Positions 16,105-39,623 of a stretch of DNA of 64,000 bases are shown here, piece by piece; the first letter of the stretch is position 1, and each line of letters starts with the position of its first letter. The notes beneath the pieces were generated by a model. It was not told the DNA's origin. It searched no databases and saw only the letters and a program-made list of their open reading frames with translations. The stretch is from Pacificibacter marinus. GTDB taxonomy: Bacteria > Pseudomonadota > Alphaproteobacteria > Rhodobacterales > Rhodobacteraceae. The stretch is from assembly GCF_018860505.1 (NCBI RefSeq), contig NZ_JAHKPU010000017.1:62001-126000 (forward strand), read 5' to 3'. A program made the position numbers and the translations under genes.

Positions 16105-17844
16105 TTAGTCGTTACGGCGTAGGGTGTGGATGGGTTGGTTTTTGTAGGTCTTATACAAAGGCAAGTATTTATCAATTCGAGCTCCCGCAACCAACGTAAT
16201 CGCCCCCAAACCCGCACATGATGCGGGTTTTGTCGTTTTTGCGCCCCCCAATGCCAGAATGCCCGCCAATTCTCCAACGAGTTCAATGCGATGCCCGTTT
16301 GGTGCGGTCTCGTCGGGCAGCATCCGTATCGCAGAAACCAGCCCCCGCAGCGCTTCTGTCGCCTCTGTCTTGAGTGCAGGGTCTTGCAGGGCTGACGACA
16401 GATTGCGGATCTTACGCTGATAAGCCTGTGACAGGCTTGGGTGCAAGCGCAGGGTCGGAGGTTCAGGGCTTTGCTCAAGGAGGCTTTCCAGGGACTGCTT
16501 CTCGCGTTCCAGCTCTGCGATGCGGTCCTTCATGCTCGGTTGATACATCCCGTCCTCAATTGCTGTCATGATGCCGTTGATCTTTTTATCGATTTTGGCG
16601 AGATCGCTACGGGCCTGCCCGCGCTCCGCAGTTGCGCCTGCTGCGTTTTGATTGAAGACGCGGTGGTATTCTTCCACGAAGGCTTCCAGCAGTTTGGGGT
16701 GGAGCAGGCTGTCGTGCAGGCCGGTGAGCACGCGGTCTTCGACCGCCTCGCGGGTGATGGTGGCACGGTTGGTGCAGATTGTGTCGCCTTTGTTGCGCGC
16801 ACCTGAGCAGCCGTAGCGCGTTTTGTTGATCAAGGTATAGCTCGAGCCACAGCAGTCGCATTTGAGCAATCCTGAACACAGATAGCTCGGACGCCGCGCA
16901 TTCTCGGGGCGGGTGCGGGCATTTTGGATTCCAGCGGGGTTCATATCTTTGCGCACGGCAGCTTGGCGGGCTTTAACGCGGTCCCATAGAGCGTCATCGA
17001 TAATTTGCAGGTGCGGCACGGCGACAACGACCTTTTGATCGGGCGGGTTCAGGCGAGCTTGGCGTTTTTGCTGTTCTGGGTCTTTGATGAAGTGTTGGCG
17101 ATCCCAAACCAAATTGCCGATATAGAGCTCGTTGTTGAGAATACCGGTGCCGCGTTTCCAGTTGCCCATGATTGTAGAGGGCCCCCATGTGCCTGCGCCT
17201 TTCCCTGTGCCTGTGGTGATGCCATCAGCGTTCAAGCCTGCCGCAATCGTGCGCGCCGAATGGCCGGCATCATATTCTTTGAAAATACGTTCAACGACAG
17301 CGGCCTGATCGGGATCAATGTCACGTTCACCCGTGACGGGGGTGCCATCCTCGTTAAAGGCGCGTCTGACGCGGTAGCCATAGCTGATCCCGCCTGCAGA
17401 TTTACCTTTGCGCACACGGCCCTCAAGACCGCGGTGTGTTTTGGCCGCGAGGTCTTTTAAGAACATCGCGGACAATACACCGTTAATGCCGATATGCATC
17501 TCGCTCACATCGCCTTGCGATACCGTCACGATACGAATGCCTCGATATTGCATTTGCTTTAAGAAGCCAGAAATGTGTTCTTGGTCACGGCTGATACGAT
17601 CGAGGCTTTCTGCCACAACCACGTCGAAAAGGCCGTTGCGGGCATCTTCGAGGAGGTTTTGGTAGCCTGGCCTTTGTAGGGATGCGCCGGAAATCGCCGC
17701 ATCGGAATAGTCATTCGTCGCGGTCCAGCCGCGATCTGCAATCAGCCTGTGGCAGATGCGTTGTTGATCCTCAATTGAGGCATCCGATTGCATGTCTGTC
17801 GAATACCGGGCGTAGGTGACAACGCGAAGAGGTTGGTCGGTCAT
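16105..17844 (-). CDS. Large serine recombinase (copy 1)
   Basis: A 579-residue protein with a resolvase catalytic domain (residues 5-150; catalytic Ser15 in YARYSTD, plus ESLDRISRDQ), a recombinase domain (about 165-265), a zinc beta-ribbon (CSGLLKCDCCGSSYTL, about 330-385) and a coiled-coil segment (about 400-460). Such enzymes catalyse integration, excision or inversion between att sites. It is about 98% identical to the copy at 25866-27575, with nine substitutions over ~560 shared residues by eye. The last ~13 residues (YKNQPIHTLRRND) differ because the repeat breaks at about 16151. A small gene 4 bp upstream forms an operon with it. Confidence 0.93.
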   Translation of the reverse strand: MTDQPLRVVTYARYSTDMQSDASIEDQQRICHRLIADRGWTATNDYSDAAISGASLQRPGYQNLLEDARNGLFDVVVAESLDRISRDQEHISGFLKQMQYRGIRIVTVSQGDVSEMHIGINGVLSAMFLKDLAAKTHRGLEGRVRKGKSAGGISYGYRVRRAFNEDGTPVTGERDIDPDQAAVVERIFKEYDAGHSARTIAAGLNADGITTGTGKGAGTWGPSTIMGNWKRGTGILNNELYIGNLVWDRQHFIKDPEQQKRQARLNPPDQKVVVAVPHLQIIDDALWDRVKARQAAVRKDMNPAGIQNARTRPENARRPSYLCSGLLKCDCCGSSYTLINKTRYGCSGARNKGDTICTNRATITREAVEDRVLTGLHDSLLHPKLLEAFVEEYHRVFNQNAAGATAERGQARSDLAKIDKKINGIMTAIEDGMYQPSMKDRIAELEREKQSLESLLEQSPEPPTLRLHPSLSQAYQRKIRNLSSALQDPALKTEATEALRGLVSAIRMLPDETAPNGHRIELVGELAGILALGGAKTTKPASCAGLGAITLVAGARIDKYLPLYKTYKNQPIHTLRRND

Positions 17845-17848
17845 GATA

Positions 17849-18040
17849 TTACTCCTCCGAAGGTGTGTTTTGTTGGGCTGCGATATCGGCCATTGCTGTT
17901 TGCCGCGCCAACAGGCGCACGATTGTGATCAGGCTGGGATGAGGGTCGGCGGGCGAGCCGCCAGAAGACACAGCGGCAGCGACGGGCGGCACTTCTGCCA
18001 CCTCCTTGTCGCTTGCGTGTGTCTTTTGGTCCCGTGCCAT
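17849..18040 (-). CDS. Small conserved partner protein of the serine recombinase (copy 1)
   Basis: A 63-residue protein ending 4 bp before the recombinase ATG, on the same strand. The N-terminal half is low-complexity (Ala/Pro/Ser) and the C-terminal half is compact (IVRLLARQTAMADIAAQ). The second copy at 27580-27771 keeps the C-terminal half unchanged while the N-terminal half has most of about eight substitutions, which fits a real protein with a constrained C-terminal helix. It may act as a recombination accessory factor; no function is proven. Confidence 0.6.
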   Translation of the reverse strand: MARDQKTHASDKEVAEVPPVAAAVSSGGSPADPHPSLITIVRLLARQTAMADIAAQQNTPSEE

Positions 18041-18494
18041 TGGCCGAGGTCTCCCGCCCGTTCCGGCGCTGCGCCGGACGGTTTAAAGTGATGTATTTGA
18101 AGCCGGAGATGTGTCCGGCGGTGTGGGTATCACTATACTGCATCGGGGACCTCATGGGGGGCGCTAAGCGACTGAAACTATGCGCTGAATGTCGGAATGT
18201 TGTGGATAACTGGCGTGTCGAAAAACTTTACCTCACTTTCGAAGCATTAAAATAGCTATAAAAAATCAACTCTTAAAAAGCTGGAAAAAATCCGGATTTT
18301 ATCTGTCTGCTCTAAAACTTAAAAAACTAAAAATCTCTCGTCTGCCTGTTTGTAAAAAACCGAAAAAAATCATCTGTTCTTTTTAAGACGAAACCCAAAA
18401 ACTGGAAAAATCCTTCAAAAACCGAGAAACTGAAAAACAAACAAACCAAAATAACGCGCACCATAAAATGACCCAGACGCTGATCCTATCTTTT
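18041..18494. other. AT-rich leader of the recombinase module (copy 1), gene-free
   Basis: About 450 bp with no supported gene. From about 18240 it is rich in runs such as GAAAAACCGAAAAA and AAACTGAAAAAC and is conserved in the second copy (from about 27990). It lies upstream of the partner-gene/recombinase pair and may hold their promoter and recombination sites. No att core was identified. Confidence 0.5.
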
Positions 18495-18840
18495 CTATGT
18501 GAACTGCCTTTTTGATTTGTTTGCCTTCTTTATGCACCTTTCTCCCCCCAGCCTTGGCGGTTCGCGCGGGATTTGATGTGGCGCGGTGATCTGTGCGCAG
18601 GTCTGCGTCTTGACGCTGACGGGCGTGACGTCGCGCAACCAAGGCTCGATCTCAGCGGCGCGCATTGAGCGGTGGTGCAGGAGTTCGCCAGCCAAGGCTT
18701 CGAGCTGATCGCGATAGTCTGCGAGCAGTTTGGTTGCGCGTTGCTCTGCGTGGTCCAAACGGTGGCGCACACGGTCGCGAAGTCTGGGTGTGGCGCGCAG
18801 GGCCTCATGTGGTTTGGCGTGCCAAACAGGACCTGCTGGT
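18495..18840 (-). pseudogene. 3' remnant of the AAA+/M41 protease gene
   Basis: The frame reads AGPVWHAKPHEALRATPRLR and so on, matching the last ~105 residues of the intact gene at 28519-30651. The ATPase and zinc-protease domains are missing; the similarity stops at about 18836, where unrelated sequence with IS3 remnants begins. The stop codon used in the intact copy is lost and the frame continues with a few extra residues. It is a truncated relic rather than a working gene. Confidence 0.85.
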
Positions 18841-18900
18841 CTTGCCACGGTTTAGTTCCGGTCTCTTTCGAGCAATGTTTGCTATGAAGGAGATTAAGAA

Positions 18901-18945
18901 TGGCAACGAGATACACACTCGAGTTTCGGCGTGATGCAGTGTGGA
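18901..18945 (+). pseudogene. IS3-type orfA N-terminal fragment
   Basis: An ATG with an upstream AAGGAG site opens MATRYTLEFRRDAV, the usual start of IS3-family OrfA proteins. The reading frame then leaves the family and stops within about 60 bp. Only the 5' stub of an insertion sequence survives. Confidence 0.55.
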
Positions 18946-18979
18946 TCTGTCACGCTTTTGTGCCGCTCCGAGTGCTCGT

Positions 18980-19138
18980 TTAGGCCACCTTCCGTTCGAA
19001 AGCGAAAGAGCTTTTCCAGCCCAATGCTGAATGACGGCGGCGTGGATTTACGCGGCCGTTGATGTATTCGAAGATCGCCATCTCAGCCTTCCGCCGCGTC
19101 TCCCAAGGATGCCGCCAGATAAGTTCAGCTTTGATCAC
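18980..19138 (-). pseudogene. IS3-family orfB C-terminal fragment
   Basis: On the minus strand the sequence encodes VIKAELIWRHPWETRRKAEM, then AIFEYINGRVNPRRRHSALG and a VA-stop end. This is the conserved C-terminus of IS3-group integrase-type OrfB, after the catalytic Glu region. Upstream coding sequence is interrupted. Confidence 0.75.
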
Positions 19139-19144
19139 TGCCTG

Positions 19145-19440
19145 TCAGGGTATTGCGCAGCAATGTCCCGAGAAGACATTTCTGGTTTGGAGCAATATTG
19201 AACTTATGAACGCTATCGGTTGTAACCTTGTGTTTACGGGTCCGTACGACAGATATGCCGTTCTGATGCAGTGACGAGGGTTCCGCAAATGATCTGGGGG
19301 ATCATTTGCCAGAGGGACACGGCCAACACGACGATGCCCCACATTCAAACCAATCTCTTTCAACTCTTCGGTCATACGAGGGCGGCCACTCTCGGGACAT
19401 TGCTGCGCATAACCCTGCCGTGCAGTGGATAGTCAGTCTC
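19145..19440 (-). pseudogene. IS3-family orfB internal fragment (HTH_21 region)
   Basis: The minus frame includes PRMTEELKEIGLNVGHRRVG, the segment just before the rve catalytic core in IS3-type OrfB. It is detached from the C-terminal fragment at 18980-19138 and not followed by a DDE core, so the element has been scrambled. Confidence 0.6.
19154..19409. repeat. 20-bp perfect inverted repeat around an IS3 fragment
   Basis: TGCGCAGCAATGTCCCGAGA at 19154-19173 recurs as its exact reverse complement at 19390-19409. It suggests that a piece of the broken insertion sequence was duplicated and inverted. Confidence 0.7.
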
Positions 19441-19751
19441 CTTTGATAGAATTTACTGCAGCCAAGGAGAGATGTTCGTGCAAAGTCGCCATGCGATGAT
19501 GTAAAGGCTGTACCCTCAGCAATTTGACAGACCAGCTGCATGACGGGGTACCGCATACCTTTTCCGTTGCATCCAACCGTTGAAATTCATTTGGCCTTAA
19601 TGGCAATCATTGCTCGTAAAAGGGCGCAGCTATTCTGCGCTAAGCCATGTTTGTTGCCTATTTTTCACGTGTTATTATTAATATCGTTACAATGACTGCC
19701 TATTTCGTACCTTAACGAAACTGCAATTAGTATTGCAAAATGGGTGTTAAA
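19441..19751. promoter_or_regulatory. Upstream region of the ugp operon with two inverted repeats
   Basis: No gene is seen. Two compact palindromes precede the ugpB start: 19703-19720 (TTTCGT, 6-nt spacer, ACGAAA) and 19722-19737 (TGCAAT, TAGT, ATTGCA). They are plausible operators for the RpiR-type regulator encoded at the end of the operon or for a global regulator. Confidence 0.5.
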
Positions 19752-21011
19752 ATGATTGCACATATCAAGAATATTACAAGCGCAGGGCTGCTGGCTTTGC
19801 TGGGGTCAACGACTTTAGCCGCGGCGGATGTGACCGTTGAATTCTGGCACAGTTTTGGTGGATCTTCTGGTGATGCGCTGAACCGTATCATTGAAAACTT
19901 TGAAGCGGAAAACGCAGATATCAAAATTGATGCGCAAGAGATCGGCAACTACAACGACATCGTCACGAAACTTCAAGCGGCGATCCCTGCGCGGCGCGCG
20001 CCTGATGCGGTGATCATGGAAGTCACACGATACGGTTTGTTCGCGGACCGCGGTGTGTTGAAAGATTTGACAGCCTATGTTGACGCAGATCCGCTTAAAG
20101 ATGATCTGTTCAACTTCGCGCGCGAAGTCGGCGTGTATGAAGGCAAAAACTACATTGTACCGTTCAATTCCTCGACGCCAGTTTTGTATTTCAACAAAGC
20201 GATTTTCCAACAAGCTGGCCTTGACGAAAACACACCTTTGAACACGTATGATGACCTGTTGGCTGCGGCGAAACAGATCACAGAAACGCTTGGCGATGAA
20301 GGTATTTCTGGCATCGCCGCTCCTGGGCAATTTGCGCGCTGGGGTCTGGTCATGGACAATGACAGCGACCTGATCGATAGCGTTTCTGGCGATATTTTGC
20401 TCGACGCACCAAATACGATCGAAGCCTATGAATTTATGGCGTCGCTGGTGCATGAGCACAAGGTTGCTTCGCCCGATGGTGTGACCAAAGAAAACAACGG
20501 TCGTGATGCATTCTTGGCTGGAAAAGTTGGTATGATGATCAACTCGACTGGCAACTACGGGCGCTCGACGTCAGCTTTGGGTGACGATTTGGCTGTCGTG
20601 CCGATGCCGTGCAATAAGGTCTGCGCCGTGCCAATCGGCGGGGCAGGGATCGGTATTTTGTCTACATCTGAACAAGAGGTTCAAGACGCGGCATATAAGT
20701 TCATCAGCTTTGCTGCCTCTCCTGAATCCAATGCATTGTGGTTCTCAGAGACGGGTTACATGCCGATCAATAAAAATACCGCAGGGCAACCTCTTGCGAT
20801 AGAAGCGTTGGCTGAAAAGCCCGGCATCGATGTGGCCATCAACCAACTTGATGTTGCACGCGGACGCCCCCGTCCTCCGGTCGTGACATGGATGCGCGCC
20901 TCTGAATATGATCTATGGCAAGCTATGGCGTTGGGCCAACGCGAAGTCCCAGACGTCTTGAACGAGTTTGCTGAACGCACACGCGCAGAAGCTGAACGTC
21001 TTAAAAAATAA
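19752..21011 (+). CDS. ugpB: Glycerol-3-phosphate/glycerophosphodiester-type ABC binding protein (UgpB-like)
   Basis: The mature protein resembles UgpB: FWHSFGGSSGDALNRIIENF near the N-terminus and PFNSSTPVLYFNKAIFQQAG, which closely follows the E. coli UgpB segment from memory. A signal peptide of about 24 residues (MIAHIKNITSAGLLALLGST...) precedes it. The ATG at 19752 is favoured by a GGGTG motif just upstream; an in-frame ATG at 19740 lies against a palindrome and has no ribosome site. It starts a ugpB-A-E-Q-C operon. Related sugars cannot be excluded, but the GDPD gene supports glycerophosphodiesters or glycerol-3-phosphate. Confidence 0.88.
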   Translation: MIAHIKNITSAGLLALLGSTTLAAADVTVEFWHSFGGSSGDALNRIIENFEAENADIKIDAQEIGNYNDIVTKLQAAIPARRAPDAVIMEVTRYGLFADRGVLKDLTAYVDADPLKDDLFNFAREVGVYEGKNYIVPFNSSTPVLYFNKAIFQQAGLDENTPLNTYDDLLAAAKQITETLGDEGISGIAAPGQFARWGLVMDNDSDLIDSVSGDILLDAPNTIEAYEFMASLVHEHKVASPDGVTKENNGRDAFLAGKVGMMINSTGNYGRSTSALGDDLAVVPMPCNKVCAVPIGGAGIGILSTSEQEVQDAAYKFISFAASPESNALWFSETGYMPINKNTAGQPLAIEALAEKPGIDVAINQLDVARGRPRPPVVTWMRASEYDLWQAMALGQREVPDVLNEFAERTRAEAERLKK

Positions 21012-21029
21012 GCCGTAACTTAACAAACA

Positions 21030-21059
21030 AACGAGGCTCCAATGCGTTGGGGCCTCGTT
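21030..21059 (+). terminator. Stem-loop between ugpB and ugpA
   Basis: AACGAGGC pairs with GCCTCGTT, with an inner CCAA/TTGG stem, followed by TTT. It is probably an attenuator or mRNA-stabilising hairpin that lets the binding protein outnumber the membrane subunits. Confidence 0.6.
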
Positions 21060-21081
21060 TCATGATTTGGAAGGCCACTTT

Positions 21082-21951
21082 ATGTTACGCCGTATGACGC
21101 CCTATCTTTTTGTGCTGCCGCTGCTCGGATTTATCGCGGTGTTCACCTATATCCCGATCGTTCAAAGCATGAACCTTAGCCTGCGCGAATGGGACTTTCT
21201 ATCGCCGACCAAACCTTACGTGGGGTTTGATAATTATCGCCTGCTTTTGGACAGTCGAGAATTTTGGAACGCTCTGCGCGTGACGGCGATCTTTGCGATT
21301 ATATCGGTGCCGCTGCGTTTGCTTTTGGCACTGTTCATCGCCAATCAACTTTTGCGTGAAACTTTGGTGTCGCGCTTGATGCGAGGCGCGCTGTTTTTGC
21401 CATCTGTCACGTCGACCGTTGCCATCGGCGTGGTGTTTTCTTGGGTCTTTTCGACAGATTACGGCATGATGAATGCGCTGTTGTCGAGCTTTGGTCTGCC
21501 AAAAGTGGCATGGTTGCAAGAGCCGCATGTTGCCTTGTGGGTGTTGATCTTTGTCAATACCTGGAAGCAACTTGGCTACGACATCATTATTTACATCGCG
21601 GGCCTGCAAGCAATTGCGCCTGAACTGTATGACGCAGCGGCTGTTGATGGGGGGCGCAAGGCCCATGTCTTTCGTCGCATCACGGTGCCGCTTGTGATGC
21701 CGACAACGTATTTCTTGCTGATGATTTCAGTGATCGAAGCTTTTCAAGTTTTCACCATAGTTGACGTCATGACCAAAGGCGGGCCTGCGGGGGCGACGGA
21801 TATGTTGGTCAATATGTTGTACCGCGTGGGGTTCAATCTGTTCGACATCGGTGTGGGATCTGCCTTGGCAGTGTTGCTATTCGCATTCCTTATCACATTG
21901 GCGGTGGTCAAATCCCGCGTTATTGGGCGAAAGGTACATTATGAAGCCTGA
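21082..21951 (+). CDS. ugpA: ABC permease, UgpA type
   Basis: The ATG at 21082 follows GGAAGG at a good distance. The 289-residue protein has about six transmembrane segments and the EAA loop (PELYDAAAVDGGRKAHVFRRITVPL). It is the first membrane subunit of the second GDPD-linked importer, and its 3' end overlaps ugpE by 11 bp. Confidence 0.9.
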   Translation: MLRRMTPYLFVLPLLGFIAVFTYIPIVQSMNLSLREWDFLSPTKPYVGFDNYRLLLDSREFWNALRVTAIFAIISVPLRLLLALFIANQLLRETLVSRLMRGALFLPSVTSTVAIGVVFSWVFSTDYGMMNALLSSFGLPKVAWLQEPHVALWVLIFVNTWKQLGYDIIIYIAGLQAIAPELYDAAAVDGGRKAHVFRRITVPLVMPTTYFLLMISVIEAFQVFTIVDVMTKGGPAGATDMLVNMLYRVGFNLFDIGVGSALAVLLFAFLITLAVVKSRVIGRKVHYEA

Positions 21952-22750
21952 AAATCCATTTTTGGCTGTCCTTGCGCTGGCCGCTGGTCTGCTGTTTTTG
22001 TCGCCTGTTTTGTATTCCATCTGGATGTCGTTTCAGACGGCTGATGCATACTACACGGGCAATATAGAGTTTACCTTTCACAACTATGAGATGGCGATCG
22101 GACAATATAATTTTGCGCGCTATCTGGTGAATTCGGTGATCGTGTCCGGACTTGTGACGCTCATTGGTTTGGCAGTCGCTACCTGTGCCGCGTTTGCCTT
22201 TGCGCGCTATACATTTCCGGGAAGCAATCTGTTGTTTGGGGCTGTCGTGGCGACATTGATGATCCCAAGTCATATCACTTTGATCCCGAACTATCTAACG
22301 CTGGCCAAGGCGGGTCTGCTGGATACCTATGCGGGATTGGTTTTGCCCGCGGTGTCTAATGGATTTGCGGCCTTTTTCTTGCGCCAATATATTCGCGGCA
22401 TCCCGCGCGCGCTGGATGAAGCGGCGTATATGGATGGGGCATCGCCTTTGAAGGTGCTGTGGCGGGTGATCATTCCGCTGTCAAAGCCCGCAATCCTGTC
22501 AATGGGGCTCTATATTTTTATCTCGGAGTGGAACAATTATATTTGGCCGCTTGTCGCGATTGGGCGCGAAGATCTTTACACATTGCAGATCGGTTTGGCA
22601 CGCCTGTACCGCGTGAATCCGGGCGAAGATATCATCGATTGGCCGCTGGTTATGGCGGCCTCAACCATCACCATTTTACCCGTTCTTGTTGGTTTCATCT
22701 TGGTCGAACGTCATTTGATACGCGGCATGATGATGGGAGCCGTAAAATGA
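21941..22750 (+). CDS. ugpE: ABC permease, UgpE type
   Basis: The ATG at 21941 lies inside the end of ugpA, indicating coupled translation. The 269-residue protein has the MalG-type topology and EAA loop (ALDEAAYMDGASPLKVLWRVIIPL). Its stop overlaps the start of the GDPD gene (ATGA). Confidence 0.9.
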   Translation: MKPENPFLAVLALAAGLLFLSPVLYSIWMSFQTADAYYTGNIEFTFHNYEMAIGQYNFARYLVNSVIVSGLVTLIGLAVATCAAFAFARYTFPGSNLLFGAVVATLMIPSHITLIPNYLTLAKAGLLDTYAGLVLPAVSNGFAAFFLRQYIRGIPRALDEAAYMDGASPLKVLWRVIIPLSKPAILSMGLYIFISEWNNYIWPLVAIGREDLYTLQIGLARLYRVNPGEDIIDWPLVMAASTITILPVLVGFILVERHLIRGMMMGAVK

Positions 22751-23520
22751 CGCACATTAGGATTAGTAATATGACACGCATTGCATCGCATCGTGGTGGC
22801 ACGCTGGAGTATGGTGACAGCACGCCTTTTGGGTTTCGTGCAACGGCGTCCCTGCCGCTGGAGGAGGTCGAGTTTGACCTGCACCCTAGCAAAGATGGTG
22901 CTATCATGGTGCATCATGACCCGACACTTGATCGCACAACAGATCGCACTGGGGCGCTAAACGCCCTTACTGAGGCCGAAATTCGTGCCGCAACCATCGA
23001 CTATGGCATTGATGAACATCCCATATCGCTCAAAGAGCTTTGCGCGTTATATCAGCAGAGTTCGGTAAATTTCAGGTGTGAATTTAAGCCAGATCGAAAC
23101 GGCGCGCCTTATGAGAATTTTGTGCCAAAAGTAATCACGGAGCTGTCTCACAACGCCATGTTAGAACGTACAGTTTTCTCGTCCTTTTTGATTGCCAACC
23201 TTGATGAGATCAAGCGCCACACAGCGCGTCCTTGTCTGTGGCTTGTCAGCCCAGCAGTGCAGAAACAATTGGGGGTGGCGACAGTGATTGACGTGGCAAA
23301 ACAGCATGACATCCCTGAGATTGGATTGAACATCGATCACGTCAGTGAAGATGTGATGATGCAGGTGACAGACGCTGGTTTAAACTTTGGGTGTTGGGCC
23401 GCACATACGGAACCCCAGATCAGAAAAGCGTTGGCTCTGCGAGCCAAAGTGTTCACAACAGACCGCCCCAATCTGGCGATTGCGGTGCGCAAAGCATTTA
23501 TGCAAGAGGCAGCCCAATGA
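22747..23520 (+). CDS. ugpQ: Glycerophosphodiester phosphodiesterase (UgpQ type)
   Basis: The start at 22747 gives an ATGA overlap with ugpE; an internal ATG at 22771 is possible. The 257-residue single-domain GDPD has HRG (IASHRGGTLEYGD), E-x-D (VEFDLHPSKDG), HH (MVHHDPTLDRTT) and a later Glu (RCEFKPD). It would hydrolyse imported glycerophosphodiesters in the cytoplasm to glycerol-3-phosphate. Its location inside a ugp-like operon gives strong functional support. Confidence 0.9.
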   Translation: MTHIRISNMTRIASHRGGTLEYGDSTPFGFRATASLPLEEVEFDLHPSKDGAIMVHHDPTLDRTTDRTGALNALTEAEIRAATIDYGIDEHPISLKELCALYQQSSVNFRCEFKPDRNGAPYENFVPKVITELSHNAMLERTVFSSFLIANLDEIKRHTARPCLWLVSPAVQKQLGVATVIDVAKQHDIPEIGLNIDHVSEDVMMQVTDAGLNFGCWAAHTEPQIRKALALRAKVFTTDRPNLAIAVRKAFMQEAAQ

Positions 23521-24596
23521 GCGCGATCACTTTGAAAGACATTCGTAAATCCTATGCGGGCGGGCCACAGATTTTACATGGCGTATCCATGGATATCCAG
23601 CACGGCGAATTCATTGTTATCGTTGGTCCTTCGGGATGCGGAAAGTCCACGTTGTTGCGGCTATTGGCGGGGCTTGACCCCTGTGAGCAAGGTGAACTTT
23701 TGATTGATGGCAAACGGGCGAATGACCTGCCGCCACAAGATCGGGACATCGGGATGATCTTTCAAAACTATGCGCTGTATCCGCATATGACGGTTTTGGA
23801 AAATATCGCTTTTGGATTAGAACTGCGCAAAGTGCCAAAAGTGGAACGCCTAAAACGAGCTCGATCTGTGGCTGAAACATTGCAGCTTACATCGTATCTG
23901 GATCGCAAGCCGGGCGCGCTGTCTGGAGGGCAACGCCAGCGAGTTGCAATGGGGCGTGCAATGGCGCGTGATTGTTCGACGTTCTTAATGGATGAGCCTT
24001 TGTCAAATCTGGACAATGCACTACGGGTTGCCATGCGCACTGAAATTAAAGACTTGCACCGTCAACTTGGGGCGACGATCATCTATGTGACTCACGATCA
24101 AACCGAGGCTTTATCATTGGCTGATCGTGTCGCGGTGATGAAGGACGGACATCTACAGCAATTCGATACACCAGATATGATTTACGATCAGCCGGTCAAT
24201 CGCTTTGTTGCTGGCTTTTTAGGCTCGCCTGCCATGAATTTTGTTCCCGCTGACTGTATCGATGATTGGGGGGGCGAGCGTAATATCGATGTTGGGTTCC
24301 GGCCTGAGGCTTTGAGCTTAAATCGCAGTCCTGTCAGTGGACCTTCTATCACTGCGCGCGTCGTTTTGACCGAAATGACAGGGGCGACTTTCATCGTACA
24401 CTGCGAAAGTGAAGCTGGCCGACTGTCAGCCGTTGTGGCGCGAGGCGAAGAATTGCCGCATGAAGGGGATACCATATGGCTGTCATTAGATCCTTCGCAA
24501 GCACTGTGCTTTGATGCTATATCTGGGGTTAGATTAGACCTTCCAGTGATGCATCACTCTCAGATGCCCAAAACGCATGTAAAAGAGACTGCCTGA
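23517..24596 (+). CDS. ugpC: ABC transporter ATPase, UgpC type
   Basis: Starts at 23517 by ATGA overlap with ugpQ. The 359-residue protein has Walker A (GPSGCGKST), signature (LSGGQRQR), Walker B (FLMDEPLSNLD), switch His (VTHDQTEA) and a C-terminal TOBE domain. The downstream regulator gene starts 25 bp later. Confidence 0.92.
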   Translation: MSAITLKDIRKSYAGGPQILHGVSMDIQHGEFIVIVGPSGCGKSTLLRLLAGLDPCEQGELLIDGKRANDLPPQDRDIGMIFQNYALYPHMTVLENIAFGLELRKVPKVERLKRARSVAETLQLTSYLDRKPGALSGGQRQRVAMGRAMARDCSTFLMDEPLSNLDNALRVAMRTEIKDLHRQLGATIIYVTHDQTEALSLADRVAVMKDGHLQQFDTPDMIYDQPVNRFVAGFLGSPAMNFVPADCIDDWGGERNIDVGFRPEALSLNRSPVSGPSITARVVLTEMTGATFIVHCESEAGRLSAVVARGEELPHEGDTIWLSLDPSQALCFDAISGVRLDLPVMHHSQMPKTHVKETA

Positions 24597-24621
24597 TGTT
24601 CCGCAGCGGTGAAATTCATTT

Positions 24622-25503
24622 ATGATTGATCGACATAATCCCCCCACGGACCTCTCTCAACTTATCACTCAGCATTTTGGAAAGTTAACGGATGCTGATA
24701 CGCGCCTTCTTAAGGTTTTAACCAGCGACCCGATCCGCGGGGCATTCGAAAATAGTACCGAAGTGGCGTCGCGGGCAGGGGTGCATCCCGCATCGGCTAT
24801 GCGCCTTGCGCGGCGTTTGGGGTTCAAAGGCTATCCTGAATTTCGAACCTTTATGCAAACCAGCTTGATGGGGGGGCAAGATGAGTTTGCAGATCCGACA
24901 GCGCGGATCGCTGCACGACTTGCGCGCGCGGGTGAGGGGGGGCTGCTGTCATCGCTTATCGACAGTGAAGTGTCTGCTCTTGAACATTTACGCGATACCG
25001 TGACCGATGCGCAAATCCGCGTTTTTTCTGAGGTTCTTTACAATGCACGGCGCATTTTTACAGTTGGAACAAGCCATGGAACGGCACTCGCAAAATTGAT
25101 TGCATTGCGTCTTCGGCGTTCTGGCTACGAGGCAATTGATTTGGGCAGCGTAGAACAGCAACAGGTAGAATGGGTTTACACGATGGGGCCCCGTGATGTT
25201 CTGTTCTTGAGCTGCTTTCGTGGCACCACAACGCAGCTCAAACACCTTACAGATTTAGCCGGTGAGCGTGATGCCGCGTGCCTCATCCTTTGTGATGTTG
25301 AAGATACTCGCATAAAGGGGGCTAAAAATAGTCAGATATGCGTCTCGCGAGGGGGGGCAGGGGAATCCCAGTCTTTGGTCGTTCCTATGACCATAGCCAA
25401 CACAATCATCCTTGATCTTGCAAGCATCGATGCCGGAAAAACCATGCGGTCTTTAAATACTTTCAAGCGGGTGAGAGAAGACCTTAATCGCGTGATAAAA
25501 TAG
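24622..25503 (+). CDS. MurR/RpiR-family transcriptional regulator (HTH + SIS)
   Basis: A 293-residue protein with an N-terminal RpiR helix-turn-helix (about residues 25-85; ASRAGVHPASAMRLARRLGF) and a C-terminal SIS phosphosugar-binding domain (about 125-260; FTVGTSHGTALAKLIALRL). It is last in the ugp operon, so autoregulation in response to a phosphorylated product such as glycerol-3-phosphate is plausible. Confidence 0.9.
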   Translation: MIDRHNPPTDLSQLITQHFGKLTDADTRLLKVLTSDPIRGAFENSTEVASRAGVHPASAMRLARRLGFKGYPEFRTFMQTSLMGGQDEFADPTARIAARLARAGEGGLLSSLIDSEVSALEHLRDTVTDAQIRVFSEVLYNARRIFTVGTSHGTALAKLIALRLRRSGYEAIDLGSVEQQQVEWVYTMGPRDVLFLSCFRGTTTQLKHLTDLAGERDAACLILCDVEDTRIKGAKNSQICVSRGGAGESQSLVVPMTIANTIILDLASIDAGKTMRSLNTFKRVREDLNRVIK

Positions 25504-25865
25504 GATTGCATGAGATGTTCGCAGTTTATTGAGCTTTTTCCATTTAACTTCTGGCTTGAGCTGATAAACAAACAAGCATGCGACCTCGCCGATGTTGGCC
25601 ATATGAGCACCTTCGTTCGCCCAACCGGGCTATCGTCAATCGTAATCGCGGTTGTCGTCGTTCGAGGTGGCTTGCCTACACCAAGCGCATATTCACAAAG
25701 GCAGGCGGGAAAAAAGGGAAATCGGCACCTTAATCGACTGCTTTTAGATTATTCATAGTAAAACCTCGCAACAGCGGTGAACTTTCGCTTTCCGCGCTTT
25801 ATAGCGAGGAATATAGTGCTTTTGGCTTTTGGCTTTTGGCTTTTGCGAGCTCGGGCTCAGGCGTG
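25504..25865. other. Gene-free interval between the ugp operon and recombinase copy 2
   Basis: About 360 bp with no convincing gene. It holds a short tandem-like run near 25817-25850 (CTTTTGG repeated) just before the recombinase stop. The right-hand limit of the repeat lies at 25881. Confidence 0.5.
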
Positions 25866-27575
25866 CTAACTTGTGGGAGTTTTATACAAAGGCAAGTATT
25901 TATCAAGTCGAGCTCCCGCAACCATCGTAATCGACCCCAAACCCGCACATGATGCGGGTTTTGTCGTTTTTGCGTCCCCCAATGCCAGAATGCCCGCCAA
26001 TTCTCCAACGAGTTCAATGCGATGCCCGTTTGGTGCGGTCTCGTCGGGCAGCATCCGTATCGCAGAAACCAGCCCCCGCAGCGCTTCGGTCGCCTCTGTC
26101 TTGAGTGCAGGGTCTTGCAGGGCTGACGACAGATTGCGGATCTTACGCTGGTAAGCCTGTGACAGGCTCGGATGCAAGCGCAGGGTCGGAGGCTCAGGGC
26201 TTTGCTCAAGGAGGCTTTCCAGGGACTGCTTCTCGCGTTCCAGCTCTGCGATGCGGTCCTTCATGCTAGGTTGATACATCCCGTCCTCAATTGCTGTCAT
26301 GATGCCGTTGATCTTTTTATCGATTTTGGCGAGATCGCTACGGGCCTGCCCGCGCTCCGCAGTTGCGCCTGCTGCGTTTTGATTGAAAACGCGGTGGTAT
26401 TCTTCCACGAAGGCTTCCAGCAGTTTGGGGTGGAGCAGGCTGTCGTGCAGGCCGGTGAGCACGCGGTCTTCGATCGCCTCGCGGGTGATGGTGGCACGGT
26501 TGCTGCAGATTGTGTCGCCTTTGTTGCGCGCACCTGAGCAGCCGTAGCGCGTTTTGTTGATCAAGGTATAGCTCGAGCCACAGCAGTCGCATTTGAGCAA
26601 TCCTGAACACAGATAGCTCGGACGCCGCGCATTCTCGGGGCGGGTGCGGGCATTTTGGATTCCAGCGGGGTTCATATCTTTGCGCACCGCAGCTTGGCGG
26701 GCTTTAACGCGGTCCCATAGAGCGTCATCGATAATTTGCAGATGCGGCACGGCGACAACGACCTTTTGATCGGACGGGTTCAGGCGAGCTTGGCGTTTTT
26801 GCTGTTCTGGGTCTTTGATGAAGTGTTGGCGATCCCAAACCAAATTGCCGATATAGAGCTCGTTGTTGAGAATACCGGTGCCGCGTTTCCAGTTGCCCAT
26901 GATTGTAGAGGGCCCCCATGTGCCTGCGCCTTTCCCTGTGCCTGTGGTGATGCCATCAGCGTTCAAGCCTGCCGCAATCGTGCGCGCCGAATGGCCGGCA
27001 TCATATTCTTTGAAAATACGCTCAACGACAGCGGCCTGATCGGGATCAATGTCACGTTCACCCGTGACGGGGGTGCCATCCTCGTTAAAGGCGCGTCTGA
27101 CGCGGTAGCCATAGCTGATCCCGCCTGCGGATTTACCTTTGCGCACACGCCCCTCAAGACCGCGGTGTGTTTTGGCCGCGAGGTCTTTTAAGAACATCGC
27201 GGACAATACACCGTTAATGCCGATATGCATCTCGCTCACATCGCCTTGCGATACCGTCACGATACGAATGCCTCGATATTGCATTTGTTTGAAAAAGCCA
27301 GAAATGTGTTCTTGGTCACGGCTGATACGATCGAGGCTTTCTGCCACAACCACGTCGAAAAGGCCGTTGCGGGCATCTTCGAGGAGGTTTTGGTAGCCTG
27401 GCCTTTGTAGGGATGCGCCGGAAATCGCCGCATCGGAATAGTCATTCGTCGCGCTCCAGCCGCGATCTGCAATCAGCCTGTGGCAGATGCGTTGTTGATC
27501 CTCAATTGAGGCATCCGATTGCATGTCTGTCGAATACCGGGCGTAGGTGACAACGCGAAGAGGTTGGTCGGTCAT
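25866..27575 (-). CDS. Large serine recombinase (copy 2)
   Basis: A 569-residue near-identical copy of the enzyme at 16105-17844, with the same catalytic Ser15 (YARYSTD), recombinase domain, zinc ribbon (CSGLLKCDCCGSSY) and coiled coil. It ends YKTPTS, whereas copy 1 ends with a different 13-residue tail. The difference begins exactly at the repeat boundary, so at least one C-terminus is not original. It belongs to the larger element continuing into the AAA+ protease and mobilisation genes. Confidence 0.93.
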   Translation of the reverse strand: MTDQPLRVVTYARYSTDMQSDASIEDQQRICHRLIADRGWSATNDYSDAAISGASLQRPGYQNLLEDARNGLFDVVVAESLDRISRDQEHISGFFKQMQYRGIRIVTVSQGDVSEMHIGINGVLSAMFLKDLAAKTHRGLEGRVRKGKSAGGISYGYRVRRAFNEDGTPVTGERDIDPDQAAVVERIFKEYDAGHSARTIAAGLNADGITTGTGKGAGTWGPSTIMGNWKRGTGILNNELYIGNLVWDRQHFIKDPEQQKRQARLNPSDQKVVVAVPHLQIIDDALWDRVKARQAAVRKDMNPAGIQNARTRPENARRPSYLCSGLLKCDCCGSSYTLINKTRYGCSGARNKGDTICSNRATITREAIEDRVLTGLHDSLLHPKLLEAFVEEYHRVFNQNAAGATAERGQARSDLAKIDKKINGIMTAIEDGMYQPSMKDRIAELEREKQSLESLLEQSPEPPTLRLHPSLSQAYQRKIRNLSSALQDPALKTEATEALRGLVSAIRMLPDETAPNGHRIELVGELAGILALGDAKTTKPASCAGLGSITMVAGARLDKYLPLYKTPTS

Positions 27576-27579
27576 GATA

Positions 27580-27771
27580 TTACTCCTCCGAAGGTGTGTT
27601 TTGTTGGGCTGCGATATCGGCCATTGCTGTTTGCCGAGCCAGCAGGCGCACGATTTTGATCAGGCTGGGATGAGGCTCGGCGTGCGAGCTGCCAGAAGAC
27701 ACAGGGGCAGCGACGGGCGGCGCTTCTGCCACCTCCTTGTCGCTTGCGTGTCTCTTTTGGTCCCGTGCCAT
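27580..27771 (-). CDS. Small conserved partner protein of the serine recombinase (copy 2)
   Basis: A 63-residue counterpart of 17849-18040, again ending 4 bp before the recombinase start. The C-terminal half (IVRLLARQTAMADIAAQ) is identical to copy 1; the Ala/Pro-rich N-terminal half differs at several positions. Conservation of spacing and of the C-terminal helix supports a genuine two-gene unit. Confidence 0.6.
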   Translation of the reverse strand: MARDQKRHASDKEVAEAPPVAAPVSSGSSHAEPHPSLIKIVRLLARQTAMADIAAQQNTPSEE

Positions 27772-28518
27772 TGGCCGAGGTCTCCCGCCCGTTCCGGCGC
27801 TGCGCCGGACGGTTTAAAGTGATGTATTTGAAGCCGGAGATGTGTCCGGCGGTGTGGGTATCACTATACTGCATCGGGGACCTCATGGGGGGCGCTAAGA
27901 GACTGAAACTATGCGCTGAATGTCGGAATGTTGTGGATAACTGGCGTGTCGAAAAACTTTATCTATTATTCTGCAACACTGTTGATGCATAAAAATAGCT
28001 ATAAAAAATCAACTCTTAAAAAGCTGGAAAAAAACCCGGATTTTATCTGTCTGCTCTAAAACTTAAAAAACCAAAAAATCTCTCATCTGTTTGTTTGTAA
28101 AAAACCGAAAAAAATTATCCGTTCTTTTTAAGATGAAAATCAAAAACTGAAAAAGCCTTCAGAAACCGAGAAACTGAAAAACAAACAAACCAAAATAACG
28201 CGGACCATCAAATGACCCAGATGCTGATCCTGTCTTTTCTATGATGCTCGTTATTTTGATTGTCTGTCTTTGGCCTCCCGCACTTAACCGCTCAATAGAC
28301 AACCGGAATGCGTGATCCGTCGATAGGGTTGGCAAATTGAGGCTTGGTTGACTTGAAGTATCTATTGTGGCGTTCCTTTTTTATATTGCGACCAACAGAC
28401 AGTATAATGTGGATCATTCCTTTGTTTTTAAGGGCAGCCTTTTGGGATTGGTGTGTGTCATTTATCTGGTTGGGGGCATCGTATTTTGCCTTTTTGATCT
28501 GTCTGTCTTTGGCCTTTC
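27772..28518. other. Gene-free leader of recombinase module (copy 2) with ~240-bp insertion
   Basis: No gene is supported. The first part matches the AT-rich leader of copy 1. The 28277-28491 part is absent from copy 1 and is flanked by copies of TGTCTGTCTTTGGCCT (28261-28276 and 28500-28515). Short frames inside it have no recognisable product. Confidence 0.5.
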
Positions 28519-30651
28519 TCACCCCAGCCTTGGCGGTTCACGCGGGGGTTGATGTGGCGCGTTGATCTGTGCGCTGGTCTGCGTCTTGACGCTGAGGGGC
28601 GTGACCTCGCGCAGCAAAGGCTCGATCTCAGCGGCGCGCATTGAGCGGTGGTGCAGGAGTTCGCCAGCCAAGGCTTCCAATGGATCGCGATGTTCTGCGA
28701 GCAGTTTGGTTGCGCGTTGCTCTGCGTGGTCCAAACGGTGGCGCACACGGTCACGAAGTCTAGGTGTGGCGCGCAGGGTCTCATTTGGTTTGGCGTGCCA
28801 AACAGGACCTGCCTCTCCAAGGCCCAAGGTGGTCTCGATCTGAATGGCGGCCTTTGTGGCCAGCGCCAAATCCGAGGTGTCAGAGCCGCCAGCCCCAGCC
28901 GAGATGTCGCCCAAGACCAAGCGTTCTGCTGCGCGGCCTGCCAAAGAATAGGCGATCTGGGCCTCAAAATCCGCCAGCAGGCTCTCGTTTTGATTGAACT
29001 GGCAGGCCACTTGGCCGCCATCCGGTGAGATCCGCAGGCTGGTGACGGCGCCCAAGTTCAAAGCGGATGCGACGATCGCATGGCCAGCCTCGTGGATGGC
29101 AATTCGCCAGAGCAGGTTTTGGTTCTCAGGGCTCGCGTCGATGTTGAGATGATCTTGCAGCATCGCCAGTGAGAGCATCGTCTCGCTGTGGCGCGCATCA
29201 GACCGTGCCGCACGGATTGCGGCATCAATCTCAGCAGCGCTTTTGCCGACAGAGCCCCGCGCAAGGGCCTGCAGGTCGGCATCGGCAATCTCATCGCGCA
29301 GATGCTGGCGCAGGATCACCAAGAGGCTCTCAGTGTCGGGCAGGGGCATCGCCACCTTGAGATCCATCCGTCCAGCGCGCAGCACGGCGGGGTCGATCTT
29401 GTCCGCGCGATTGGTGGTGCCAACCAGAATGACACCTGCGTCGTGCGAGATCGCATCCAGCGCTGCAAGGAACGCATTGATTACTTGTAAGCGATAGCCT
29501 GAGCCATGGCTGTCGTCGTCATTGCGCGTGCCAACAGCATCGATCTCATCGATGATCAGGACACAGGGTGCTTTGCGGCGGGCTTCTGCAAAGCTGCCGC
29601 GCATCTCGCGCAGCATGTCGCCCAAGTGCCCCGCCGCTTGCCATGCGCCAAAGCTGGCGCTGACAACGGATAAGCCAGCGCTGTTGCCAATGGCGCGGGC
29701 GAGATAGGTTTTGCCGGTGCCGGGCGGGCCGTAAAGCAAGAGCGAGCGGCTGATCTCGTGCCAGCTTGCTTTGCCTGCTTTCCAAAGCTGCAGATCATCG
29801 ACAATCCGGCGGGCCGCCGACAGGGCGGGGCTCTCGCCGCTCATATCCTCCAAACGCGGGCCAGAAGTATTAGCATCGCGTTTGGTGACAGCACTCAGCT
29901 GTGCCAAAGCCGCCTGCAGGTTCTTCGCACGCAGCGTGGCACAGGTGGTGACCGTGTCGAGATCGCAGAGGATCTCATCGTTCGGAAGTGCTGCGCATAA
30001 GGCGGTGGGATCAGAGATGTGATGCGAGAGATGGCCGGATTGCAAAAATGTGGTCAGGATATCGCCAGAGATCCGCGCCATTGGAAAGGTGGGCATTGTG
30101 GGCGAGGTGATCGCGGTCACATGTTTGGGCAGCGAGATGCCATCGGCTTGCAAGGCCAACACCGGCTGGATCATGTCAAAGCTGTCGGTCAGCGCGGTGT
30201 GAAAGCGGGCTTGCGCGTTCTTTATAAGTGCGCCCTCAGCGACGTCCGGCGCGATCACCTGCCACTGGTCTTGTGCGAAACAAATGCGCAAGACGTCTTT
30301 GAGCGTCGCAAGATCTGCGAGGTCGATATCGCGGATCACGGTGAGCGCGCCGCAGGTCTGCGCCGCAGTGATGACCGATGGTGATTTGAGGCTGGCGGCC
30401 AGACGAATGGCGGTCAGAACCTGACGGGCGGGCACGTGGCGGGGCGGCACTGTGCTGGCGGACAGTGAACTGTCTGGCGCAAAGCAATCGATGCCGTCGC
30501 CTGCATCGAAACGCGCGAAGAGCGTATCGAGTTCAGAGGGCGTGAGGTCTTCATCGGAATGACGCGCCACGCCGTGATGGCGGCGCAGGCGCTCGATCAA
30601 CGTATAGGCAAAGTCGGTCCATACGGGTGTTTGGGTCTGTGATTTGGGCAT
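28519..30651 (-). CDS. Soluble FtsH-like AAA+ ATPase/M41 zinc metalloprotease
   Basis: A 710-residue protein without transmembrane segments. Residues 1-265 form an unrecognised N-terminal region. An AAA+ domain follows with Walker A (GPPGTGKT, about 308-315), Walker B (LIIDEID, about 365-371) and arginine finger region (LRAGRMDLKV). A peptidase M41 domain then has the zinc motif HEAGH (about 520-524) and a probable third ligand in the GGSDTSDLALAT segment. FtsH is normally membrane-anchored by N-terminal helices; their absence points to a cytosolic protease or unfoldase. It precedes the recombinase module and follows a zinc-ribbon/GIY-YIG gene on a mobile element. A partial copy exists at 18495. 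Confidence 0.9.
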   Translation of the reverse strand: MPKSQTQTPVWTDFAYTLIERLRRHHGVARHSDEDLTPSELDTLFARFDAGDGIDCFAPDSSLSASTVPPRHVPARQVLTAIRLAASLKSPSVITAAQTCGALTVIRDIDLADLATLKDVLRICFAQDQWQVIAPDVAEGALIKNAQARFHTALTDSFDMIQPVLALQADGISLPKHVTAITSPTMPTFPMARISGDILTTFLQSGHLSHHISDPTALCAALPNDEILCDLDTVTTCATLRAKNLQAALAQLSAVTKRDANTSGPRLEDMSGESPALSAARRIVDDLQLWKAGKASWHEISRSLLLYGPPGTGKTYLARAIGNSAGLSVVSASFGAWQAAGHLGDMLREMRGSFAEARRKAPCVLIIDEIDAVGTRNDDDSHGSGYRLQVINAFLAALDAISHDAGVILVGTTNRADKIDPAVLRAGRMDLKVAMPLPDTESLLVILRQHLRDEIADADLQALARGSVGKSAAEIDAAIRAARSDARHSETMLSLAMLQDHLNIDASPENQNLLWRIAIHEAGHAIVASALNLGAVTSLRISPDGGQVACQFNQNESLLADFEAQIAYSLAGRAAERLVLGDISAGAGGSDTSDLALATKAAIQIETTLGLGEAGPVWHAKPNETLRATPRLRDRVRHRLDHAEQRATKLLAEHRDPLEALAGELLHHRSMRAAEIEPLLREVTPLSVKTQTSAQINAPHQPPREPPRLG

Positions 30652-37564: not shown

Positions 37565-39097
37565 TTAGCTTTTTTCATGTGGCGCGATTTCTTTGAAAAA
37601 CCTGTCAGTGTCTACCTGGATCTCGTGTCGTTTTTCATCCGTCATGCGATCAAGGCTTTGGTACATGAACCCCATCCTTGGATTGCCGCGCAGCTTGTCT
37701 GCGTTGCGGTCAATAAAGTCCCAGTAAAGGTAGTTAAACGGGCAGGCTTTGGGGCCATTTTTCACCGTGTGTTTATAACTGCAAGACCCGCAATAGTTCG
37801 ACATTTTGTTAATATAGGTGCCGCTTGCCGCATAGGGTTTGGACCCCATGATGCCGCCATCTGCGAACAAGATCATGCCGCTGACGTTAGGTAGCTCTAC
37901 CCATTCGTAGGCGTCGGCATAGACCAAAAGATACCAGTCATTGACCTGATCAGGGTCCAAACCTGCGATCAATGCGAAATTTCCCAGCACCATCAAACGT
38001 TGGATATGGTGGGCGTAAGCGTTTTGCTTTGTCTCGGTAATGCACTGGCGCATGCAATTCATTTTCGTGTCGGCGGTCCAGTAAAATTCGGGCAAAGCGC
38101 GTTTGGCCTCAAGGAAATTCATCGCCTTATAGTCTGGCATTTTGATCCAGTAGATGCCGCGCACATATTCACGCCACCCCAAAATTTGACGAATAAACCC
38201 CTCAACAGCATTTAATGGCGCACTGCCGTCGTGATAGGCCGCTTCAGCGCGAGCAATACACTCAAGAGGCGCGAGAAGACCGCAGTTGAGGTAAAGCCCG
38301 ATATGACTGTGGAACATCCATGGCTCGTTTTGCACCATCGCGTCTTGATAGTCACCGAATAGGCGCAACCGCGCATAGACGAACAGATCCAAGGCTTGCA
38401 ACGCGGCATCACGCGTCACAGCAAAGTGGAATGGGGCAATGTCACCAAAGTGGTCGGAAAAATGTTGCGATACAAGGTCGATCACGTCTTGGGTGATGTC
38501 ATCGATATCTATGTGAAACGTGTCGGGTACGGTCAAGTCTTTGGGGGGCGATTTGCGATTGCTTTCATCGTAATTCCATTGCCCGCCGATGGGGCCGTCA
38601 TCCGTCATTAGGATCGCATGCTTCTTGCGCATCTCGCGGTAGAAATACTCCATGCGAAACTGTTTGCGCCCTTCAGCCCACGCGGCAAATTCCTCAGTTG
38701 AGCACAAGAAACGGTCGTCAGGTCGGATCGCCACGGGCAGGGTCAGGGCGTTTGCCCATTGCTTCATATCCTCGAGCACACGGTATTCATTCGCTGCGGT
38801 AACGATAATCTCGGAAATGCCGCGCTGATCTGCCAGCCGCCCGACTTCGCCACGAATGGAGCCTGTGTTCGCGGGATCGTCATATTTTACGTAGTGGACA
38901 TTGAACCCTTTCGTCGAGAGCGACGCCGCGAAGTGACGCATCGCAGAAAACAGGAACACGATCTTCTTTTTGTGATGTTTGACGTAGGTCGCCTCTTGTC
39001 GGACTTCGCACATCAAAATCATATCTTCCTTTGTGGCATCCCGTAGGCTAGAAATCGTGTGCGATAACTGATCGCCAAGTACCAAACGCAGCTTCAT
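37565..39097 (-). CDS. phrB: FeS-containing (6-4) photolyase-type cryptochrome/photolyase (FeS-BCP/CryPro)
   Basis: A 510-residue photolyase-family protein (LRLVLGDQLSH start) of the prokaryotic FeS-BCP group. The four cluster cysteines are visible: one in MNCMRQC, a C-G-S-C pair (SNYCGSCSYKH) and one in ACPFN, with the last two spaced by 13 as in Agrobacterium PhrB. FAD-pocket segments such as FIRQILGWREYVRGIYW and NDWYLLVYADAYEWVELPNV are intact. It repairs (6-4) photoproducts in this family. The ATG at 39097 is preferred to a TTG at 39142 that would overlap the neighbouring gene. Confidence 0.9.
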   Translation of the reverse strand: MKLRLVLGDQLSHTISSLRDATKEDMILMCEVRQEATYVKHHKKKIVFLFSAMRHFAASLSTKGFNVHYVKYDDPANTGSIRGEVGRLADQRGISEIIVTAANEYRVLEDMKQWANALTLPVAIRPDDRFLCSTEEFAAWAEGRKQFRMEYFYREMRKKHAILMTDDGPIGGQWNYDESNRKSPPKDLTVPDTFHIDIDDITQDVIDLVSQHFSDHFGDIAPFHFAVTRDAALQALDLFVYARLRLFGDYQDAMVQNEPWMFHSHIGLYLNCGLLAPLECIARAEAAYHDGSAPLNAVEGFIRQILGWREYVRGIYWIKMPDYKAMNFLEAKRALPEFYWTADTKMNCMRQCITETKQNAYAHHIQRLMVLGNFALIAGLDPDQVNDWYLLVYADAYEWVELPNVSGMILFADGGIMGSKPYAASGTYINKMSNYCGSCSYKHTVKNGPKACPFNYLYWDFIDRNADKLRGNPRMGFMYQSLDRMTDEKRHEIQVDTDRFFKEIAPHEKS

Positions 39098-39122
39098 CGC
39101 TGCGCCATATTTTCCAGTGACT

Positions 39123-39623
39123 TCAAGACTCGCACCCGCCAACCGTCAGCATTGCTTCAGCATTTGCAGCAAGAACTGCAGTGGTTTGTTTTCCGCTCGC
39201 ATTTAGAGATATTTGCGCGCCGTTGATCTCTTCGTCAGACACCGTGATTTCACGCGTTCCATTTGTGTCGTCCACGTCAATCGTGAACGCGATTTTCTGG
39301 CCAAGGCCAAGCGACGCGATAGAAAACGTCGCAGTTTGGTCGCCATCTGTGATGGTCGGCTGGCTGGTCAACAGGTCCGCACCCTCGGTTATTTCAAACG
39401 GTTGAAATACCTCAACGCCTTCACCTGCAGCGCTCACGTCAAAGATCAGGCCCGCGTTCGTGGCTGCAAAGTCTATGACCAATTCGGCGGGGCCGATATT
39501 GCAGGTGCCTTGGTTCGTAATAATAAATGCGTCCTTGGGTGCCCCTTCGACGAACTGAACACGCACGTCAGCAACCGCTGGCAAGGCAATAAATAAGGCG
39601 AAGGCAGCGAGACAAAGTTTCAT
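39123..39623 (-). CDS. Small secreted protein, 'aggregation factor core'-like, function unknown
   Basis: A 166-residue protein with a clear signal peptide (MKLCLAAFALFIALPAVA) and a beta-rich mature part (VRVQFVEGAPKDAFIITNQG, DATFS/ITV-type strands), with one cysteine near each end (GTCNIG, GGCES) that could pair. It resembles proteins labelled aggregation factor core in Rhodobacterales, a label without proven function. It lies 26 bp upstream of the photolyase gene on the same strand and may be cotranscribed with it. Confidence 0.7.
   Translation of the reverse strand: MKLCLAAFALFIALPAVADVRVQFVEGAPKDAFIITNQGTCNIGPAELVIDFAATNAGLIFDVSAAGEGVEVFQPFEITEGADLLTSQPTITDGDQTATFSIASLGLGQKIAFTIDVDDTNGTREITVSDEEINGAQISLNASGKQTTAVLAANAEAMLTVGGCES

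Follow-up and report, generated by a model that had tools for sequence, protein, structure and literature searches.

How an import operon came to lie between two copies of a recombinase gene, and whether it could leave again, was the question raised by a 64,000-nucleotide stretch of Pacificibacter marinus DNA (positions 62001–126000 of contig C2 of the 51-contig genome; hereafter the window). The copies, rec1 and rec2, each encode a large serine recombinase and flank a Ugp-type operon. The analysis described below makes it highly probable that the ugp genes are the cargo of an integrative element, X, which lies in tandem between two others, Z and Y, in the manner of cassette-chromosome islands. 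Feature coordinates are given in Table 1.

Direct repeats and the attachment half-site

Alignment of the two regions by blastn gave a direct match of 16148–18499 with 25879–28243 (97.0% identity, 2366 columns) and a second direct block, 18505–18836 with 28487–28812 (91.0% over 332 columns), which includes the tail of an AAA+ gene; approximately 240 bp present in copy 2 are absent from copy 1. The recombinases were 98.4% identical over 566 residues (dS 0.036 and dN 0.007, i.e. synonymous and non-synonymous divergence, over 560 codons), and both matched PF00239 (Resolvase), PF07508 (Recombinase) and PF13408 (Zn ribbon) above the cut-offs. The best NCBIfam match was CcrB, with 109.7 bits against a cut-off of 900, followed by lower scores for CcrC and CcrA, and in the PDB rec2 was matched over its N-terminal part only (11 sequences). 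The original prediction of two direct repeats, each with a near-identical large serine recombinase, was thus borne out, as was its claim that copy 1 carries only the tail of the AAA+ gene, the stop codon of which is not conserved. The enclosed operon is Ugp-type as proposed: its proteins gave UgpB, UgpA, UgpE, GDPD, UgpC and RpiR-family best matches, although every one scored below the curated NCBIfam cut-off. The small partner gene predicted in each copy is present in both and is probably the 63-aa frame, similar frames preceding the recombinase in L036, L037, L043, L044, L047, L050, L055 and L057 (by eye). A 104-aa frame was discarded in this role, since its dN of 0.031 exceeded its dS of 0.026 and the 63-aa frame has the counterparts just mentioned.

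Mapping of attachment (att) cores placed an 11-bp core, GGTTGCGGGAG, inside the 3' end of both recombinase genes and in the same orientation. On the minus strand this core begins a 42-bp half-site, GGTTGCGGGAG followed by CTCGA-TTGATAAATACTTGCCTTTGTATAA; both repeats end where the half-site ends, and the copies then diverge. The 33-bp core-plus-arm pattern occurred twice in the window and not at all in 100 shuffles. With few substitutions, the 42-bp unit was found at 12 places, namely four in this genome, five in the two-contig relative G032 and three in the sister species G010 (a 13th match, in G330 with 3 mismatches, was left out of the set). The DNA past the unit was mostly different between sites, with some sharing further end sequence (e.g. 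att1 and C2:46145). Directly left of the unit lay a recombinase or a fragment of one at 5/12 sites, no recombinase match at 6/12 and masked sequence at 1/12. Because six units have no recombinase match directly to their left, the unit is best read as one half of an attachment site, and the notion that the repeat edges are mere gene ends was rejected. Taken with the recurrence of the half-site at 12 places before mostly different DNA, this makes att1 and att2 look like junctions of neighbouring elements.

With up to 3 mismatches, the version of the unit called P'A was found in 3 of 394 genomes drawn from the family and in 2/20 from the genus, and among plasmids in one record (90.7%); the att pattern with one base free was not found in IMG/VR. 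In G032, the region from 2.22 to 2.53 Mb (313 kb) contains 8 cores, all in the same orientation.

Table 1. Features of the array in the window (positions, strand, and basis or remark)
Feature	Start	End	Strand	Remark
rec1, large serine recombinase	16105	17844	-	579 aa; frame passes through core
att1	16151	16192	-	core 16182–16192 + P' half-site; read as junction of X with next element Y
Partner gene of rec1, 63 aa	17849	18040	-	MARDQ... HPSL..IVRLLARQ; counterparts beside other recombinases
AAA+/M41 remnant	18543	18836	-	294 bp, last 98 codons matched (blastn)
Patchwork resembling insertion sequence (IS) fragments	18837	19437		by eye; pieces recur in other loci; between AAA+ remnant and ugp
ugp cargo segment (ugpB, ugpA, ugpE, GDPD, ugpC, rpiR)	19438	25790	+	98.3% identical to G010 C23
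Stretch between P' half-site and cargo	25791	25881	-	resembles equivalent stretch at a G032 site (by eye)
rec2, large serine recombinase	25866	27575	-	569 aa; frame passes through core
att2	25882	25923	-	core 25913–25923 + P' half-site; read as junction of Z with X
Partner gene of rec2, 63 aa	27580	27771	-	counterparts beside other recombinases
AAA+ protein with M41 (FtsH-type) protease domain	28519	30651	-	HEAGH and GPPGTGKT (Walker A) read in translation
orf387, module gene	30735	31898	-	weak matches, below cut-offs, to GIY-YIG-type (T5orf172/MUG113) and zinc-ribbon domains
orf202, module gene	31831	32439	-	no domain match
MobA/VirD2-like relaxase	33735	35573	-	presumed Z cargo; below TraI_MobP cut-off
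Possible degenerate att	39913	39923	-	core GGTTGCGGGGA; rec3-type left arm match 0.88; right side fits no class

The initiator tRNA gene as probable target

We compared 42 recombinase loci: the 2 window copies, 2 more from this genome, 2 each from G032 and G010, 4 of a 7-locus set, 21 plasmid loci (drawn from the best 40 of 255 records) and 9 genome matches; the sample was not random. The core lay at the recombinase 3' end in 40/42 loci (GGTTGC[CG]GG near the gene end), the coreless ones being L142 and L016. In relatives, the core forms the 3' end of tRNA-fMet, the initiator tRNA. By our own tally, with matches scored within the stretch scanned, the core was followed by tRNA-fMet at a score of at least 72/77 in 19 loci, by a partial copy in 6 and by other sequence in 14, and was cut by a contig end in 1. 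The named full-tRNA cases came from four alphaproteobacterial orders (Rhodobacterales, Sphingomonadales, Hyphomicrobiales and Rhodospirillales), and ARAGORN, given full-scoring loci, called tRNA-Met in L036, L037, L045, L056, L057, L059, L060, L062 and L063. rRNA genes lay beside tRNA-fMet in two of three sources (L045 and L062; none for L044, where the right flank is not a tRNA) and in 2/8 of a second set (L064 of this genome and L111 of G032).

In three of the 19 full loci, L057, L060 and L062, a short interval and another core separated the first core from the tRNA. These mini-intervals (L060 777–873, 96 bp; L057 14499–14595, 96 bp; L062 21610–21661, 51 bp) resemble the smallest possible cassette.

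The half-sites on either side of the core were found in different combinations. Across 30 sites, with arm classes and thresholds set after the sequences had been viewed, each of three recurrent left arms joined at least two right arms, the change being located at the 11-bp core. The rec1/2-type left arm was joined to P'A four times and to tRNA twice; the rec3-type arm to P'B twice, to tRNA once and to a right arm of no class once (window 39923); and the TTGATTATTTT-type arm to P'A twice and P'B twice. The flank of the G032 rRNA operon was joined to tRNA three times and to a right arm of no class once, and the flank of this genome's rRNA operon type to tRNA twice and to P'A once; left arms fitting no class accounted for 9 of the 30 sites. 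We regard such shuffling around the core as a mark of site-specific recombination.

Several further observations concern the target. In this genome, the tRNA-fMet that ends an rRNA operon (L064, contig C23, 6071–6147) reads AIDNIGELVLVAGVGFEPTTFRL on the opposite strand, which resembles the terminus of a G002-type recombinase; the site may therefore be occupied already. The recombinase of phage RR1-A (34% identical) ends with VVAGERF over TGGTAGCGGGAG, and on this ground a related phage may target a different tRNA. On a Komagataeibacter plasmid (L141, 2231–2450), a gene annotated as tRNA(fMet)-specific endonuclease VapC adjoins a related recombinase.

A probable array of elements and the origin of the ugp segment

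Element X extends from approximately 16,182 to 25,923, with an att1–att2 spacing of 9,731 bp (~9.7 kb), and contains rec1, the 63-aa gene, the AAA+ tail, the IS-like fragments and the ugp segment. The first genes of Z, from att2 onwards, are rec2 and an intact module, and the degenerate site listed last in Table 1 is a candidate for its far end; no relaxase was seen among the X genes scanned. Y lies below att1; its end is made up of rec3 (C2:46.2 kb), an interval of 103 bp and a further half-site. The chromosomal backbone was colinear with G010 up to C2:44,841. When the far edge of the array was sought through G010 C44, one 74% match of ~0.7 kb and some short ones were obtained, and the G010 stretches L119–L125 gave no match over 100 or 150 bases to contig C2.

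Each element would thus have a recombinase-side end, the serine recombinase gene with the core in its last codons, and another end consisting of a half-site. The partner for the core of a circular element would be either the tRNA-fMet end or the core of an element already in place, and integration of this kind would stack elements in tandem and leave the tRNA unharmed. The original prediction that recombination could remove the operon fits this scheme, as ugp is bracketed by directly oriented recombinase sites; recombination of att1 with att2 would free X as a 9,731-bp circle that includes rec1 and ugp. The sites, their direct orientation, the mixed half-sites, the link to tRNA-fMet, the recent exchange of ugp and the module of the closer relatives can be read from the sequence itself; the excision of X, its accretion in tandem and the functions of the recombinase tail and the protease considered below are what we infer from it. 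Two points weigh against X being such an element. The window array is not adjacent to an intact tRNA-fMet, and rec1 and rec2 were 98.0, 98.8 and 100% identical to each other over three stretches, compared with 96.6–98.8% to the C22 or G010 copies in those stretches.

The second of these points would fit an origin by copying within the locus, discussed below. The alternative that fares best, though we think it improbable as the whole account, is that homologous recombination between the 2.4-kb repeats, and not the recombinase, now deletes or circularises ugp. The repeats, directly oriented and 97% identical across 2366 columns, would suit it, but it would not generate the mixed half-site combinations at other sites; it may operate alongside the recombinase.

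Somewhat less probable still is a patchwork made by insertion sequences, in which these brought ugp into a decaying island and the recombinase copies were bystanders. IS-like fragments do lie beside the ugp segment, and they include inverted arms (19136–19173/19390–19427) that form the sole inverted pair of at least 30 nt in 10000–36000. In G010, ugp lies on an 18-kb contig, flanked by what look by eye like an IS end on one side and a tad locus on the other; in a genome-wide search this recombinase had no match on that contig, and the tad-like locus had none in the genome studied here. This account gives no reason for a precise att half-site to lie within 90 bp of the segment's other edge. IS action is, moreover, compatible with X as an element, since X may have gained ugp through it.

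The ugp segment has in any case moved between these lineages recently, to judge from its dS between this genome and G010 (0.023–0.051, 4 frames), which is far below that of the backbone (0.226–0.353, 5 frames; frames as mechanically listed, some overlapping). In this genome, tripartite tricarboxylate transporter-like frames (L046, contig C22, 5295–8360; by eye) adjoin a P' half-site and a recombinase fragment, and transport operons may for that reason recur as cargo. A second importer set lies in Y (window 334–6387, minus strand), comprising a substrate-binding protein, two permeases, an ABC ATPase and GDPD; it is a distant parallel of ugp.

The original prediction had favoured a local duplication of the recombinase module, with ugp trapped between the copies. 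The closeness of rec1 to rec2 given above speaks for it, but we consider this origin quite unlikely: the repeats share an edge with the att half-site, which occurs at 12 sites with mostly different neighbours, and identity along the repeats is uneven (roughly 96–100% per 200 columns in the recombinase and 73–97% upstream). Moreover, with the rec3 module as outgroup, the AAA+ tails had changed on both branches (7 changes in copy 1 and 12 in copy 2, with 1 left unassigned), which suggests that the two tails have separate histories. An assembly artefact as the source of the second copy is unlikely because the copies are ~3% divergent and their flanks differ.

The recombinase tail, its module and related systems

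The recombinase frame was open through the core, reading VAG, in 38/43 alignments. The five exceptions were L143 (core past the stop), L017 (broken frame), L142 and L016 (coreless) and the L046 fragment (truncated at a contig end). Among 13 anchorable loci, the linker that precedes the core had six lengths, every one a multiple of three (L142, L143, L016 and L017 were excluded from this comparison). As the frame runs through the core in most alignments, the C-terminus of the recombinase appears to depend on the DNA across the join. When joined to tRNA, the tail reads e.g. VAGVGFEPTTFRL, and its stop codon overlaps the anticodon, which is on the opposite strand (by eye); in the array state it is e.g. 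VAGARLDKYLPLYKT, which is basic. It is conceivable, but doubtful, that the recombinase senses its own integration state in this way, that the tail could set direction or stability, and that the AAA+/M41 protein, where encoded, might read the tail. This protease could not, from the loci compared, be a general reader, since many loci with an in-frame core have no AAA+ match.

The order orf202, orf387, AAA+/M41, recombinase was found in L036, L043, L050 and the rec3 locus of this genome. L056 had no orf202 match, and the AAA+ part was seen in L037 and L055 within the stretch examined. Compared with Z, the rec3 locus was 87% identical in AAA+, 84% in orf387 and 44% in the recombinase, as if the recombinase had been exchanged relative to its module. 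T5orf172 matches of orf387 homologues had E values of 0.0016 to 0.16 in 3/4. PADLOC recognised no system; it gave AAA-domain matches to IetA and TRIP13 and weak ones to mad8 and GajB. The idea that AAA+ accompanies the recombinase everywhere was rejected: at E up to 1e-5, no AAA+ match was found at recombinase loci including L038, L044, L045, L057, L060, L062 and L063. Approached from the AAA+ side (18 of 22 matches examined, all outside this genome and G032), this recombinase lay downstream of AAA+ in 6/18 loci (E up to 1e-8) and was absent in the other 12; five of the six had the core in the same frame and four had tRNA-fMet at a score of at least 73/77. The module, consisting of orf202, orf387, AAA+/M41, the 63-aa protein and the recombinase, thus belongs to the closer relatives and not to the whole recombinase family.

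Among known systems, the cassette chromosomes SCC and ECC share with the present elements a large serine recombinase, a conserved att core, direct repeats, composite islands and variable cargo, and tandem elements with direct att repeats were found here as well. ECC is described, in the section concerned, with rlmH as target and repeats of roughly 50 bp (PMC6222049). The elements studied here differ in that their target is tRNA-fMet and not rlmH, in that they have one recombinase (with a CcrB score far below the cut-off) instead of a CcrA/CcrB pair, and in that the closer relatives carry an AAA+/M41 protease. For integrative and mobilizable elements (IMEs), passages of one paper describe accretion at one site and, for site-specific serine-recombinase IMEs, disruption of dispensable genes (PMC5704250). 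A MobA/VirD2-like relaxase is presumed cargo of Z, the far end of which is only a degenerate candidate; the target here, by contrast, is the end of a tRNA gene, and the tRNA is intact in 19 loci. Neither do the flanks of ugp correspond to a composite transposon, as they are site-specific recombinase modules with a tRNA-derived core and not transposases with terminal inverted repeats.

Paracoccus phage vB_PamS_Pami6 has a serine recombinase and a predicted integration at tRNA-Met(CAT); in the relevant part of that report it is the only serine-recombinase prophage for which an integration site is given (PMC6536676). It is a phage, likened here by description, and was not among the best 15 of 430 phage records. 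In mycobacteriophage BPs, attP is described as lying within a coding frame, so that integration alters the C-terminus of a protein and acts as a switch (PMC4557955, in part). The gene there encodes the repressor, the free form of which is said to bear an ssrA-like tag, whereas here it encodes the recombinase itself. A literature search restricted to open-licence papers found no report that brings together serine recombinase, tRNA-fMet and genomic island, which does not establish absence in print.

If the interpretation is correct, these loci would define a family of integrative elements, found here in four alphaproteobacterial orders, that have the initiator tRNA end as their landing site and can accumulate into arrays with transport operons as cargo; the in-frame att core would offer a state switch open to direct testing. 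Islands of this type may easily escape notice, since assemblies break at rRNA operons and several of the recombinases do lie at a contig end. The presumed cargo of Z includes a photolyase-related protein (DPRP; window 37565–39142). In Paracoccus pantotrophus, a predicted aac(3)-Ih (L044, 35698–36153) lies ~14 kb from a related recombinase.

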